Source: Hydrogenophaga sp. (GTDB taxonomy: Bacteria > Pseudomonadota > Gammaproteobacteria > Burkholderiales > Burkholderiaceae_C). From it: 64,000 nucleotides of DNA. The stretch covers positions 124,001 through 188,000 of the forward strand of contig JACVCO010000006.1 of the NCBI GenBank assembly GCA_016741995.1, read 5' to 3'. How positions within the stretch are numbered: position 1 is the first letter of the stretch; every line of letters starts with the position of its first letter. The notes below the pieces were generated by a model. The model did no database searches. It was given only the letters and a program-made list of their open reading frames with translations, and was not told the DNA's origin. Made by a program: the position numbers and the translations under genes. Positions 51,940 to 56,389 of this stretch are shown in pieces.

Positions 51940-52608
51940 TCAGATGAGGCCAAGCCAGCAGGCGCGCTGCACCGCCGCGAGCTTGTTGTCGGTCTGCAGC
52001 TTGGCCATGGCATTGGCCAGGTGGTAGTTCACGGTGCGCTCGGACACTTCCATGCGGGAGGCGGTCTCGCGCGCGGTCAGGCCTTCGAAGGCAAGGTTCA
52101 GGCTCTCGAGCTCGCGCGGGCTCAACGCCACTCGCTGCTCGGCCAGGGCACGCTTGAGCATGGGCCACACGTTGAAGGCCGACCACGCCAGGGCGGCCGC
52201 CTCGGCCCGGCCGCCAAAAGCCCGCGGGCTGAAAAGGAAACACTCGAAGGCGCGCCCCGCGGGCAGCGGGAAGGCCACACGCACCAGGGTCTGGTGCCCA
52301 TGCGCAAGAAACAGGCGGCGCCAGCGGCTGCCCTGGTCGGACGCCGACTTGGCGATGTCCTGCCAAGCCACCAGGGGTGCGTCGCTTTCGCGCCAGCTCG
52401 AACCGAAATCGCGGCTCTCCGCCAGCGCCTCGGCGGCGGCCAGCACACGGGGCGGGTGCGCGGCGAGAACATCGCGTTTCTCGCGCGGGCCGACGGGATC
52501 CGGGCCGAGCACCACCAGCGCTTCCACACCCTGCTCGCGCAGCGCGCAAAGCCAGTCCGACAGGATGCTGTCGACCCCGACACTGTCAAAGTTGACAGGG
52601 AGGGTCAT
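51940..52608 (-). CDS. LuxR-family regulator of the quorum-sensing locus
   Basis: A 222-aa protein. The N-terminal 150 residues look like a degenerate autoinducer-binding domain: DAPLVAWQDI resembles the Pro/Trp pocket motif and TLVRVAFPLPAGRAFECFLF the core strands. The HTH (about 160-222) is of quorum-sensing type: LSPRELESLNLAFEGLTARE, SERTVNYHLANAMAKLQTDN, then a WLGLI end. It has no luxI partner in the window. It is divergent from the kinase gene (87 bp), and a lux-box-like palindrome covers codons 4-9, suggesting autoregulation. Whether it binds acyl-homoserine lactone, a hydroxyketone or nothing is unknown. Confidence 0.87.
   Translation of the reverse strand: MTLPVNFDSVGVDSILSDWLCALREQGVEALVVLGPDPVGPREKRDVLAAHPPRVLAAAEALAESRDFGSSWRESDAPLVAWQDIAKSASDQGSRWRRLFLAHGHQTLVRVAFPLPAGRAFECFLFSPRAFGGRAEAAALAWSAFNVWPMLKRALAEQRVALSPRELESLNLAFEGLTARETASRMEVSERTVNYHLANAMAKLQTDNKLAAVQRACWLGLI
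52581..52600. promoter_or_regulatory. Lux-box-like palindrome at the luxR start
   Basis: CACTGTCAAAGTTGACAGGG has the CTG-N10-CAG layout of lux boxes; CTGTCAA-AG-TTGACAG (52583-52598) is a perfect inverted repeat. It overlaps the first codons of luxR and lies about 100 bp upstream of the kinase start. A near copy is found before the synthase gene at 56370-56389. The likely ligand is the adjacent LuxR protein. Confidence 0.7.
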
Positions 52609-52695
52609 GCCCGTCTCGCCCTTTCAGGGCGCAGAATGCGCGCAGCCTGCCGAGCCGAGGGCACGGGGGCGAAGCACGCTTGAACACAGGAGAGC

Positions 52696-54027
52696 ATGTT
52701 GCGGCTGGACCGGTTGCAATTGAGAAACACGCTGGCGCGTTGGCGCCAATGGTGGCACGACGACGTCGTCGACGCACCGCTGGAGCCCATTTTGCACCCA
52801 TCCCCGCAACGGTTGCTGTGGATCGGCGTATTCACGTTCTGCGGGCATGTGCTGTTTCACTGGGTCTGGGCTTACGGGTTGCCCCAGCCCTACGAGAACC
52901 CGTTGGCGCGCCTGTTCATGGCGCTCACCTCCCTGATCTACCTCATGCCCGCCCTGCGGCGCGACCCGACCTCCGCCACCAGCGGGCGTCTGTTCACGCT
53001 CGCCACCTGGATTCAACTGCCCTGGTTCTTCACCTGGATGTACAGCATGAACGGCGGCAACCCGGTCTGGCTGGGCAGCTTCGTGGCCATGGTGCTCGTC
53101 TACTACCACGCCACCGACTGGCGCCTCGCCACCCTGGGCCTGATCGTCGGCGGTGGCGCCGGCCTGTTGACCACGCACCTGCTGGGCGCCAGCCCGGTCG
53201 GCCCGGAACAGCCCATGGCCAACATCGTGGTCATCGGCTTTGCCTGGTCGATGGGCCTGATGCTCGGCCTGTCCAGCGCCAACCTGCGGCGGGCGCGGCT
53301 GATCAACACCTTGTCCACCATGGGCGTGATGGCCCACGAGCTGCGCACGCCGCTGGCCACCGTCAACCTCATGGGCGACGTGCTGCGCAACCTGTCGCAG
53401 CACGACGTGGGCGAGGCCAAGCGCAAGAAGTTCGAGGAGCTCGCCACCCGGTTGCAGAACCTGGTGCGCAGCATGAACCGCCAGATCGATACGCAGATAT
53501 CCAACGCCCAGTTGCTGCGGCTGCCACGCGAAAACCTGCCGATCCAGGCCGCCGATCTGGTGCAGGAGGTGATAAGTAGCTACCCCTACCGCAGCTCGCG
53601 CGAGCGCGATTGCGTGCGCGTGCAGGTTCAGCAGGATTTCTGCTTCACCGGTTCGCGCGCGATGTTTGCCCAGGTCATCACCAACCTGCTCAAGAACGCG
53701 CTGCATGCGCTGGCCTCGGCCAGCAGCGCGCCGCAGCCGGGCGACCTGCGCGTGGACGTCGGCATCCACCACGGCAAGGGGCGCATCGCGGTCTCCGACG
53801 ACGGCATCGGCATCTCGCACGAACTGCAGACACGCATCTTCGAGCCCTTCTATTCCACCCAGGCCGGCGCGGGCAACGGCCTGGGCCTGACCTTCTGCAA
53901 GAACGTGGTCGAGGCGGCCAACGGCCGCATCAGCGTGCACTCGGAGCCCGGCCTGGGTGCCGTGTTCATGATCGACTTGCCCTTGTCCACCTCCGGCTCG
54001 CCGATGCGGCCCACCCCGACCGCTTGA
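52696..54027 (+). CDS. lqsS: Alpha-hydroxyketone sensor histidine kinase (LqsS/CqsS-like, non-hybrid)
   Basis: A 443-aa kinase. The first 195 residues are a multi-pass membrane domain (about six segments) whose core LPWFFTWMYSMNGGNPVW resembles the CAI-1 sensor region of CqsS. H-box is MAHELRTPLATVN with His214; N-box NLLKNALHAL; G1 DDGIGIS; G2 GNGLGLTFCKN. It has no receiver domain, so it is like Legionella LqsS rather than hybrid Vibrio CqsS. The separate receiver protein follows after 4 bp. Divergent from luxR. Confidence 0.86.
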   Translation: MLRLDRLQLRNTLARWRQWWHDDVVDAPLEPILHPSPQRLLWIGVFTFCGHVLFHWVWAYGLPQPYENPLARLFMALTSLIYLMPALRRDPTSATSGRLFTLATWIQLPWFFTWMYSMNGGNPVWLGSFVAMVLVYYHATDWRLATLGLIVGGGAGLLTTHLLGASPVGPEQPMANIVVIGFAWSMGLMLGLSSANLRRARLINTLSTMGVMAHELRTPLATVNLMGDVLRNLSQHDVGEAKRKKFEELATRLQNLVRSMNRQIDTQISNAQLLRLPRENLPIQAADLVQEVISSYPYRSSRERDCVRVQVQQDFCFTGSRAMFAQVITNLLKNALHALASASSAPQPGDLRVDVGIHHGKGRIAVSDDGIGISHELQTRIFEPFYSTQAGAGNGLGLTFCKNVVEAANGRISVHSEPGLGAVFMIDLPLSTSGSPMRPTPTA

Positions 54028-54031
54028 CGCC

Positions 54032-55018
54032 ATGGCCCTGACCCTGTCCCTCTTCCAGCGCCCGGGCGCGGTGCTGTTTCTCGACGACGATCCCGACTAC
54101 CTGGAGATGCTCGGCATGGTGGTGCCGGCGCAGACACAGGTCGAGCTCTACTCGCGGCCCTCGGGCTTTCTCGCGCGAATGCAGGCCGAACCGGCCCACT
54201 GGGAGGCCGACGCCGCCCTGCAACTGCAGATGATCGACCGCTGGCGCCAGGGCCAGGCGCTGATCCCTCAGGTGCTGCACTACTGGGCGACGCGCCCCGA
54301 GCGCTACCGGCTGGCGCAGATCTGCGTGGTCGACTACGCCATGCCCGGCACCGACGGCCTCACCGTGCTCAACACCCTGCTCGACTGGCCGGGCTCGCGC
54401 GTGCTGCTGACCGGCCAGGCCGACGAGCAGATCGCCATCCAGGCCTTCAACAACGGCCTGATCGATCAGTTCGTGCCCAAACAGGCCACCGACATCACGC
54501 GCCACCTGCTGGGCGTGCTGCGCCGCCTGGCCCAATCGCCGCACCCGCGCCTGAACACCATGTGGCGGGGCGTGCTGCGGCCGCACCAGGTGTCGCTGCT
54601 GCAGATCCCCTCGGTCGCGCAATGGCTGCGCGACTACACGCACCACCACTGGGTGGAATACGTGGTGATCGGGGAGCCCTTCGGCCTGATCGGGCTCGAC
54701 GCCGAAGGCCAGGTGCACTGGCTGCAGCTCGAACCCACGGCCAGCCTGGGCGATCTGGCCGAGCTGGCCGCCTCGGCCGCGCTGGGCATGGAGGTGGTTC
54801 AGGCGGTGCGCGATGGCCGCCGCCTGGCCGCGGTGGAGTTGCACCAGCAAATGGCGCTGCGCGGGCCGGTGCGCACCGCGTCGGCCACCCCGATCGGCGA
54901 GGACGGCCTGCTCATGGCGGCCGCTTTCGAACTCTCCGGCGCCGAACTGCCGCAGCCGATCTACCCGTACCGCCACTTCCTCCAGGCCGAGAACCACCGC
55001 GTGGTGCAGGACCACTGA
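54032..55018 (+). CDS. lqsR: LqsR-like response regulator with uncharacterised output domain
   Basis: A 328-aa regulator. The receiver has acidic residues D18-D20 in VLFLDDDPDY, phospho-acceptor Asp101 in VVDYAMPGTDG, Thr127 in LLTGQA and Lys150 in FVPKQ. An insertion of about 50 residues (45-95) lies between the early strand and the phospho-Asp strand, so Asp101 comes late, as in LqsR. The output part (165-328) has no HTH; it contains VEYVVIGEPFGLIGLDAEGQ and VRDGRRLAAVELHQQMALRG. Legionella LqsR has a nuclease-like C-terminal fold; the relation here is an inference. It is coupled to the kinase gene. Confidence 0.8.
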   Translation: MALTLSLFQRPGAVLFLDDDPDYLEMLGMVVPAQTQVELYSRPSGFLARMQAEPAHWEADAALQLQMIDRWRQGQALIPQVLHYWATRPERYRLAQICVVDYAMPGTDGLTVLNTLLDWPGSRVLLTGQADEQIAIQAFNNGLIDQFVPKQATDITRHLLGVLRRLAQSPHPRLNTMWRGVLRPHQVSLLQIPSVAQWLRDYTHHHWVEYVVIGEPFGLIGLDAEGQVHWLQLEPTASLGDLAELAASAALGMEVVQAVRDGRRLAAVELHQQMALRGPVRTASATPIGEDGLLMAAAFELSGAELPQPIYPYRHFLQAENHRVVQDH

Positions 55019-55052
55019 AAGAAGAACGCCGGCAGTTGCCGGCGTCTTTCTT
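55019..55052. terminator. Bidirectional terminator between response regulator and synthase genes
   Basis: AAGAAGA, then a perfect stem ACGCCGGCA-GT-TGCCGGCGT (55026-55045), then CTTTCTT. Purine-rich on the left and T-rich on the right, it can end both the response regulator and the convergent synthase transcripts. Confidence 0.85.
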
Positions 55053-55064
55053 GCGGTGCAGAGG

Positions 55065-56306
55065 TCAGGCCTCCGCAGCGACCCGGGCGCGGCGCGCGAT
55101 CGGCCAGTCCCAGGGTTGCACGATCGGCGCCACCTCGGCCAGCACGGCTTCGATGTGATCGAGTTCGGCGTCCGTGAGGGCTGCGCTCAGCGTCAGGCGC
55201 ACCATGGCGCGGTTGCGGCTGGTGGCCGGCGCGCAGAAGATCGCGCCGAACACGCCGCGCGCCTCCAGCGCGTCGCGCAGCTTCATGGTGTCGGCCTCGG
55301 TACCGGCCTCCAGCGCAATGATCTGCTCGGTGCCCTGGTGGATCGGGTAGCCCAGGTCGGTGATGCGCTCGCGCAGGCGGCGCGTCATCTGGAACAGGCG
55401 CTCGCGCTGGGCGTCGGCGCGCTGCAGCACGTCCACCGTGGCGCGCAGGCCGGCCACCTCGTGCGGCAGCAGGCAGGAGCTGAAGATGTTCGGGAAGCTC
55501 GAGGTCAGCACGTAGTAGCGCATGCTGGCGGGCATGGTGAAGAAGCCCGCGCGGCCGGCCATGGCCTTGGCCAGGCTGGCGGTGATGAAGTGCACCCGGT
55601 TGGTGAGGCCCAACGAGGCCACGAGGCCGGCGCCGCGCTCACCGTGCGTGCCCAGCGAGTGCGACTCGTCGACCAGGATCATGGCGCCGTGCTTCTCCAC
55701 CACCTCCACCATTTCGGCCAGGGGGCAGACCGCGCCGGTGGTGCTGTAGACGGAATCGACCACCACCACCCCCGGGCCCTTGCGGCTCAGCATTTTGTCC
55801 AGGTGGTCCGGGTCGTTGTGGCGGAACATGTGCGCCGGCGCGCGCGCCGCGTGTGCGCCTTCCCACAGCGAGGTGTGCGCCATGGCGTCGATGAACACGG
55901 GGGTGTTGGCGTTGGCGATGCACTGCAGCAAGCCCACATTGGCCGAATAGCCGGACTGGCAGACCAGGGCCTCTTCCTTGCCCACCCAGTCAGCGAGCGC
56001 TCGCTCCAGCGCGCGCGAGGGGTGCTGCTGCAGCAGGAACACGCCCGACTGCACCACGAATTCGGTGCTGCGGGTCAGGGCCGACACCTGCGCCGAGACG
56101 ATGTCCGGGTGACCGGTGACGCTGAGGTAGTCGTTGCCGTCCAGACGCACCGCATTGGGGCCTGGCTGACTGCCGTGCAACACAAACTTGCCACCCCACT
56201 CCCCCTCCCAGCGGGGTTTGAAGTCGCGCTCGAGGCGGGCGAGCACGGCGGGGTGCATGGCGGGCTCTTTCGGCACCGCTCTTTCCAACGTTCCCAACGA
56301 ATCCAT
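55065..56306 (-). CDS. cqsA: Alpha-hydroxyketone autoinducer synthase (CqsA/LqsA)
   Basis: A 413-aa PLP enzyme of the alpha-oxoamine synthase family. CqsA-specific segments are LVCQSGYSANVGLLQCIANA, AHTSLWEGAHAARAPAHMFR, VVVDSVYSTTGAVCPLAEMV, VDESHSLGTHGERGAGLVAS and the PLP lysine K247 in HFITASLAKAMAGRAG. It condenses an acyl-CoA with an amino acid-derived partner to make a hydroxyketone-type autoinducer. The first ATG is chosen (AGGAG 8 bp before it); a Met at residue 17 would match the usual 390-aa length. Convergent with the kinase/regulator pair. Confidence 0.92.
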   Translation of the reverse strand: MDSLGTLERAVPKEPAMHPAVLARLERDFKPRWEGEWGGKFVLHGSQPGPNAVRLDGNDYLSVTGHPDIVSAQVSALTRSTEFVVQSGVFLLQQHPSRALERALADWVGKEEALVCQSGYSANVGLLQCIANANTPVFIDAMAHTSLWEGAHAARAPAHMFRHNDPDHLDKMLSRKGPGVVVVDSVYSTTGAVCPLAEMVEVVEKHGAMILVDESHSLGTHGERGAGLVASLGLTNRVHFITASLAKAMAGRAGFFTMPASMRYYVLTSSFPNIFSSCLLPHEVAGLRATVDVLQRADAQRERLFQMTRRLRERITDLGYPIHQGTEQIIALEAGTEADTMKLRDALEARGVFGAIFCAPATSRNRAMVRLTLSAALTDAELDHIEAVLAEVAPIVQPWDWPIARRARVAAEA

Positions 56307-56335: not shown

Positions 56336-56369
56336 ATTAAAAAAATGAATGTGTGACGTATCGCACGAA

Positions 56370-56389
56370 CCCTGTCAGAGTTGACAGGG
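56370..56389. promoter_or_regulatory. Lux-box-like palindrome upstream of the synthase gene
   Basis: CCCTGTCAGAGTTGACAGGG has the CTG-N10-CAG layout with 18 of 20 positions paired. It differs from the site at 52581-52600 at two positions (A to C at position 2 and A to G at position 8). The centre is about 73 bp before the synthase ATG. If the promoter has the usual lux-box spacing (centre about 42 bp before the transcript start), the transcript would begin just before the hairpin. Confidence 0.7.

Follow-up and report, generated by a model that had tools for sequence, protein, structure and literature searches.

The 64-kb stretch of Hydrogenophaga sp. DNA analysed here (contig JACVCO010000006.1; below, the window) contains, within positions 51940-56306, four adjacent open reading frames (ORFs) for a LuxR-type protein, a kinase, a receiver protein and a synthase. 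With a synthase adjacent to a membrane kinase and an LqsR-type regulator, this is a locus of the Lqs/Jqs type, and we lean towards reading it as a hydroxyketone quorum-sensing system of that kind in which the LuxR-type protein would be the transcriptional output of the LqsR branch and not a second signal receptor. Synthase-kinase-LqsR clusters in betaproteobacteria are already published; the LuxR partner is the new part.

The four proteins of the locus

The synthase belongs to the alpha-hydroxyketone autoinducer synthases (CqsA/LqsA/JqsA). It passed the cut-off of the alpha-hydroxyketone synthase family NF005526 (561 bits, cut-off 428) and fell below those of bioF (233, cut-off 426), serine palmitoyltransferase (220, cut-off 500) and 5-aminolevulinate synthase (ALAS; 182, cut-off 339). 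Its best solved relatives are entries for the CAI-1 autoinducer synthase CqsA (E about 5e-101), and an SLAK motif supplies the pyridoxal phosphate (PLP) lysine. A grouping with BioF or ALAS, which the preliminary description of this DNA had named as evidence that would speak against it, is thus not what the family scores and solved relatives give. Among named genomes the closest relative of the synthase is that of Hydrogenophaga intermedia MER 62 (91%).

The kinase displays an H-box (VMAHELRTP), an N-box (NLLKNA) and the motifs DDGIG and GNGLGL; HATPase_c was matched in Pfam, with HisKA just under its cut-off (26.3 against 26.9 bits). A Pfam scan of the protein found no receiver domain, in agreement with its original description as non-hybrid; CqsS of Vibrio is a hybrid kinase. 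In a look for six transmembrane helices, four segments over threshold were predicted in the window kinase and 3-10 across 92 relatives.

The best match of the receiver protein by sequence is 6sy9 (LqsR; E 2.5e-13, receiver part only), and its predicted model (predicted local distance difference test score, pLDDT, 94) again finds 6sy9 as the best match by fold, now over the whole length (E 1.4e-19, template modelling score, TM, 0.71/0.76). Its Pfam receiver match, at 26.8 bits, does not reach the family cut-off of 30.2; D18, D19, D101, T127 and K150 are invariant in 42/42 aligned proteins. The whole-length LqsR fold of the model and these receiver residues together indicate that the protein is a member of the LqsR family. 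No DNA-binding domain was found in it.

The LuxR-type protein carries a C-terminal helix-turn-helix (GerE; 6.8e-14, 51.7 bits, cut-off 23.5), and its model (pLDDT 88) has a LuxR-like fold with an N-terminal alpha/beta domain, for which the first structure matches are QscR, RhlR and SdiA (E 5e-10 to 1e-8, TM about 0.35-0.55). A Pfam scan gave no match to the autoinducer-binding family PF03472, and when its profile was compared with those of six LuxR proteins of PF03472 type, the helix-turn-helix alone aligned. A canonical acyl-homoserine lactone (AHL) receptor was therefore rejected, the similarity to AHL receptors lying in the fold only. The label 'quorum-sensing LuxR' given to this protein at first holds for the helix-turn-helix and the fold, but with PF03472 unmatched it is weaker than claimed. 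A further LuxR, of PF03472 type, is encoded elsewhere in the own genome (L141, C1:92986-93399).

Association of the LuxR-type protein with LqsR

We compared the locus with 56 related ones from named genomes and with samples of 399 family genomes and 180 order genomes (L numbers denote loci or stretches, G numbers genomes). A LuxR ORF is present in 54 of the 56 named loci, in the order synthase, LqsR, kinase, LuxR; the other two are a 3,086-base contig that ends inside LqsR (L044) and a locus labelled Sneathiellales with a 47% synthase (L053). The four-gene arrangement is not due to chance, because its gene order recurs in relatives. The preliminary description had proposed an alpha-hydroxyketone-type locus with a built-in LuxR-type regulator and had named the absence of the kinase and regulator from related genomes as a point that would count against it; the regulator proves to be conserved in related genera, and so are these neighbours.

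In the family sample (LuxR threshold E <= 1e-20), the synthase passes its cut-off in 36 genomes and LuxR is found in 43, with both in 33, one of which (G335) has the locus split across two contigs. The three synthase-bearing genomes that lack LuxR have synthases at 58, 39 and 49% (L113, L120 and L121, respectively). The ten with LuxR and no synthase comprise eight divergent, adjacent LuxR-LqsR pairs, for which neither kinase nor synthase was found in a stretch of up to 20 kb, one distant pair (LuxR 33% beside LqsR 31%) and one broken luxR piece. An LqsR match thus accompanies LuxR in 42/43 genomes, the 43rd being the broken piece. Dependence of LuxR on the synthase was rejected on account of the eight genomes that keep LuxR without it, and LuxR is unlikely to be a passenger of the neighbouring coaX gene, as luxR lies at varying distances from it and coaX is absent from the stretch in some loci. 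LqsR-like proteins occur in 52/399 family genomes.

The same association is seen in how the proteins diverge. Partial correlations of identities were calculated over 58 loci with CoaX as the control gene, and gave 0.54 for synthase and kinase sensor, 0.44 for kinase sensor and kinase core, 0.72 and 0.68 for kinase core and the two LqsR domains, and 0.67 and 0.62 for these domains and LuxR (p 0.0005 for the pairs along this line), against 0.09 for LuxR and synthase (permutation p 0.089). Pairs off the line were lower without vanishing, among them 0.41 and 0.40 (sensor-LqsR), 0.22 (synthase-kinase core) and 0.16 and 0.09 (synthase-LqsR). Thinning to 43 loci left LqsR-LuxR at 0.71 and 0.67. With MBL-rhodanese as a second control (29 loci) the values were 0.63 (synthase-sensor), 0.48 (sensor-core), 0.75 (core-LqsR), 0.58 (LqsR-LuxR) and -0.05 (LuxR-synthase), MBL-rhodanese itself giving -0.04 to 0.20. 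The pattern is what a line from synthase through kinase sensor, kinase core and LqsR to LuxR would give, and gene nearness alone is not the explanation, because lqsR adjoins the synthase gene and lies apart from luxR.

These values bear on two other roles for LuxR. It might be a second, cytoplasmic receptor that binds the hydroxyketone of the synthase directly, beside the kinase, so that one signal has two receptors. Its linkage to the locus and its LuxR-like fold with an N-terminal alpha/beta domain would suit such a role, but its divergence does not track that of the synthase under either control, as that of the kinase sensor does, and it persists in eight synthase-less genomes; we consider this role unlikely. 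Alternatively, LuxR could gate the hydroxyketone system from a separate cue, with a ligand of its own such as a foreign AHL or a metabolite, and be unlinked to LqsR. LuxR solos with such roles are described in parts of PMC10134790, and palindromes at both control regions (see below) need no input from LqsR. The co-divergence of LuxR with LqsR under both controls, its retention next to LqsR in loci lacking synthase and kinase and its missing PF03472 match make a separate cue improbable in our judgement.

In L042, L046, L047, L050 and L103 the synthase (63-66% to the window) and kinase sensor (48-53%) are more diverged than LuxR (79-81%), CoaX (84-87%) and the kinase core (78-80%), which is how a change in the type of signal within Hydrogenophaga-like strains might look. 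The diverged genes of L007:5861-8166 are instead those for LqsR (55%) and the kinase (62%), with the synthase at 77% and CoaX at 86%.

Farther afield, the synthase clears its cut-off in 13 genomes of the order sample (E <= 1e-120), 11 of which lie outside the family and have synthase identities of 45-50%. No perfect CTGTCA-N4-TGACAG was found in these 11 stretches; L222 and L223 do not extend far enough to reveal the neighbours, and in L221 no LqsR is seen. One of the 11 has a LuxR gene, at L225:4653-6416 (G415, from a different family of the order). It is of PF03472 type and follows and adjoins LqsR in the same direction within a hydroxyketone locus, as a separate LuxR-LqsR neighbourhood. In L155:7672-10689 (G132) and L156:7105-10138 (G035), an LqsR-like protein (34-35% to the window LqsR, no Pfam receiver match) adjoins LuxI (PF00765) and an AHL-type LuxR (PF03472). 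The LuxR-LqsR tie may have arisen more than once, because such further arrangements exist (L137, L225, L155/L156).

A palindrome at two control regions

The palindrome CCTGTCA-N4-TGACAGG occurs upstream of the synthase in 72 of 80 distinct regions with <=2 mismatches (58 perfect), a level reached by 0.05% of 4000 mononucleotide shuffles. Its end lies 60-67 nt before the synthase start codon in 66/72 regions and is followed 28-31 bp further on by TTCAAT in 68/72, where the window has TTTAAT. The eight regions without it are L029, L092 and L109, whose LuxR is 51-58% identical, L053, L113, L120 and L121, which have no LuxR, and L138, in which the synthase is cut by the contig end. In the window, where 0.21 matches with <=2 mismatches would be expected, there are two, and both lie in this locus. 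CTG-N10-CAG is the geometry of a lux box, and we infer that this lux-box-like palindrome is the binding site of LuxR. The JAI-1 motif TTGA-N6/7-TCAA was rejected as a common element, being present in 1/80 upstream regions.

The second window copy lies within luxR, where 82/87 luxR starts have the palindrome with <=3 mismatches and 57 have NNCAAT 30-32 bp beyond it on the kinase side (AGAAT in the clade of the window). In the 76 luxR genes that encode P-x-N-x-D-S here, proline is CCT in 75/76 (71/824 elsewhere in genes), phenylalanine TTT in 74/75 (229/698 elsewhere) and serine AGT/AGC in 76/76 (657/1195 elsewhere). In the synthase-less genus g70, where the peptide is PVRTAS and lies 6 bp farther from the start, 4/5 loci retain the palindrome with two mismatches (four mismatches in L131). 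Because codons are biased and the palindrome is kept where the peptide differs, these data point to selection on the DNA itself. The luxR start codon is a predicted one, so that the palindrome might precede the true start; none was seen by eye in the luxR-kinase intergenic stretch proper. One palindrome common to the synthase promoter and the luxR/kinase control region supports the two-layer control suggested originally.

Genome-wide, perfect palindromes occur in 26 of the 43 LuxR-bearing family genomes (60 sites) versus 13 of the 356 others (16 sites), and in 0/10 genomes with LqsR but no LuxR. That the palindrome serves some other factor, or works as an RNA hairpin or terminator, with luxR as a linked passenger, we judge very improbable. 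Inverted repeats can fold, the genes on either side of the window palindrome point the same way, and the perfect copies in LuxR-less genomes would agree with such an origin. On the other hand, the arm letters are fixed rather than co-varying, no run of T follows directly, the palindrome recurs in luxR codons and is kept in Polaromonas loci with different upstream spacing (L014-L019), its occurrence tracks LuxR and not LqsR, and a PF03472-type LuxR is present in only 3/20 relatives.

Two synthase-less loci, L194 (G272) and L196 (G162), have a perfect palindrome just past LqsR, at the expected place of a synthase promoter, which may be a relic of synthase loss.

Sites outside the locus suggest, weakly, a wider regulon. 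The own genome (82% complete) has five places with <=2 mismatches, against two for a backwards control: two are perfect (synthase and L162), the copy in the luxR codons has a single mismatch, and the remaining two have two each. Outside the lqs locus, 21/43 LuxR-bearing genomes have perfect palindromes (36 sites), of which 35, all in LuxR-bearing genomes, were fetched (the sixth G164 site was left out). Among the 38 downstream proteins scanned, a part of the total, recurrence is given as raw counts without a random-site background: genes starting near the palindromes encode ShlB-type secretion proteins (four genomes, three genera) and PF03602 methyltransferases (four genomes, one genus), with cellulase-like GH5 genes (Pfam in two genomes, a third 77% identical, one genus) and phosphonate-binding-like genes (three genomes, two genera) also nearby. 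RebB (killing trait), RHS-repeat and ShlB-type secretion genes near such sites (L170:1763-2002, L198:2862-5000, L168, L172, L173 and L179; again with no random-site background) would suit a quorum regulon. The wax-ester and acyl-CoA genes of the window, once put forward as targets, have no palindrome with <=2 mismatches and were rejected as candidates.

Features of the hydroxyketone locus (window positions)
Feature	Position	Strand	Basis or proposed role
LuxR-type transcription factor, 222 aa	51940..52608	-	GerE helix-turn-helix, LuxR-like fold, conserved next to LqsR; proposed transcriptional output
Palindrome (single mismatch) in codons 4-9 of luxR, turned towards the kinase-LqsR operon	52582..52599		Proposed LuxR site
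Membrane sensor histidine kinase of the LqsS/JqsS kind, non-hybrid, 443 aa	52696..54027	+	HATPase_c, H/N/G boxes; sensor co-varies with synthase
LqsR-type response regulator, 328 aa	54032..55018	+	Best fold match 6sy9; invariant receiver residues; no DNA-binding domain found
Alpha-hydroxyketone autoinducer synthase, 413 aa, PLP lysine K247	55065..56306	-	NF005526, CqsA structures, SLAK motif
TTTAAT at the position of the TTCAAT element of relatives, possibly -10-like	56336..56341	-	Upstream regions of relatives
Perfect palindrome, 64 nt before the synthase start	56371..56388		Proposed LuxR site

The table bears out the four genes as first delimited, by ORFs, families and folds.

Proposed mechanism and relation to known systems

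As we picture it, the synthase would make an acyl-CoA-derived alpha-hydroxyketone, as its family suggests. The N-terminal part of the kinase would sense this compound and signal to the LqsR-type receiver, in keeping with its family, catalytic residues and co-divergence. Having no DNA-binding domain, the receiver would then act on the divergently encoded LuxR, perhaps by direct contact. LuxR would presumably bind CCTGTCA-N4-TGACAGG at the luxR/kinase-LqsR control region and ahead of the synthase gene, which would close a feedback loop, and also at a few scattered genome sites, probably to activate rather than repress.

A number of observations weigh against LuxR as the output of LqsR. Ten family genomes with LqsR have no match to this LuxR, and LqsR can therefore work without it. 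Perfect palindromes are missing from 17/43 LuxR-bearing genomes and present in 13 that lack LuxR, and the perfect site of L162, which is part of a longer inverted repeat flanked by a gamma-glutamyltranspeptidase gene on one side and a UPF0093 gene on the other, may be unrelated. LuxR also correlates with the kinase core (0.50) and kinase sensor (0.34), and its correlation with the synthase rises to 0.21 on thinning to 43 loci. The ligand-binding half of LuxR has no family assignment, and the protein may need a ligand of its own. Finally, the counts are uncorrected for relatedness, and some species stand in more than one sample, with identical sequences removed.

The preliminary description overstated the case in taking Vibrio and Legionella as the known models. 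Portions of the literature already report betaproteobacterial clusters, such as JqsA/JqsS/JqsR of Janthinobacterium (PMC3566124, PMC5080296) and the lqs clusters of an LqsR/PhcX survey that found 310 genomes and names Hydrogenophaga (PMC10653808). Clusters that contain homologues of lqsA and lqsS, and in some cases of lqsR as well, are noted for Ralstonia eutropha, Nitrococcus, Burkholderia xenovorans and Polaromonas (PMC3376566). The Jqs system shares with the window a hydroxyketone-type synthase, an adjacent kinase, an LqsR-like regulator and a conserved palindrome before regulated genes including that of the synthase, but its motif is TTGA-N6/7-TCAA and no LuxR gene is described in the cluster, in the parts of the papers at hand. 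Legionella likewise has a synthase, a non-hybrid kinase and a receiver of the LqsR fold (6sy9), whereas the portions of PMC3376566 and PMC11237717 available place hdeD in its cluster and describe no LuxR gene there. Vibrio CqsA/CqsS shares the synthase family; its output runs by LuxU/LuxO and is not locus-linked, according to passages of PMC3376566. The LqsR/PhcX survey shares the LqsR-type regulator and the betaproteobacterial cluster, but in the text available it describes no partner transcription factor ('luxr' occurs 0 times in the main text; PMC10653808). No LuxR gene is described in the cluster in the available parts of PMC3566124, PMC5080296, PMC3376566 or PMC10653808. In the open-licence PMC literature we found no paper joining LqsR with a lux box, and none joining hydroxyketone, LuxR and Comamonadaceae; of 49 papers that combine two out of LqsR, LuxR-type and lux box, the 15 listed contain no LqsR.

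LuxI/LuxR systems and PqsE-RhlR resemble the locus in the LuxR-type fold, the helix-turn-helix and a palindrome before the synthase gene, but here there is no LuxI at the locus, no PF03472 match and another class of signal. RhlR offers a parallel to our proposal, as a LuxR-type protein whose activity is set by a partner protein, PqsE (parts of PMC13043044); the partner proposed here is a response regulator. Tentatively, and with rather less confidence than we would need to assert it, LqsR-family response regulators in general may act on genes via LuxR-type partner proteins, the window being the fullest case.

The route from a hydroxyketone signal through LqsR to gene expression looks unsettled, judging from sections of the literature that describe the LqsR output domain as putative and report that in vitro assays detected no diguanylate cyclase activity (PMC10653808, PMC11237717). 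The DNA-binding regulator of this locus, together with its presumed DNA site ahead of the synthase gene, suggests how hydroxyketone systems may switch genes on. The conserved LuxR-type partner with its defined palindrome offers a direct output that can be tested, along with a reporter promoter and candidate targets in a group of environmental bacteria. If our reading is true, the LuxR partner could answer what LqsR does after phosphorylation.

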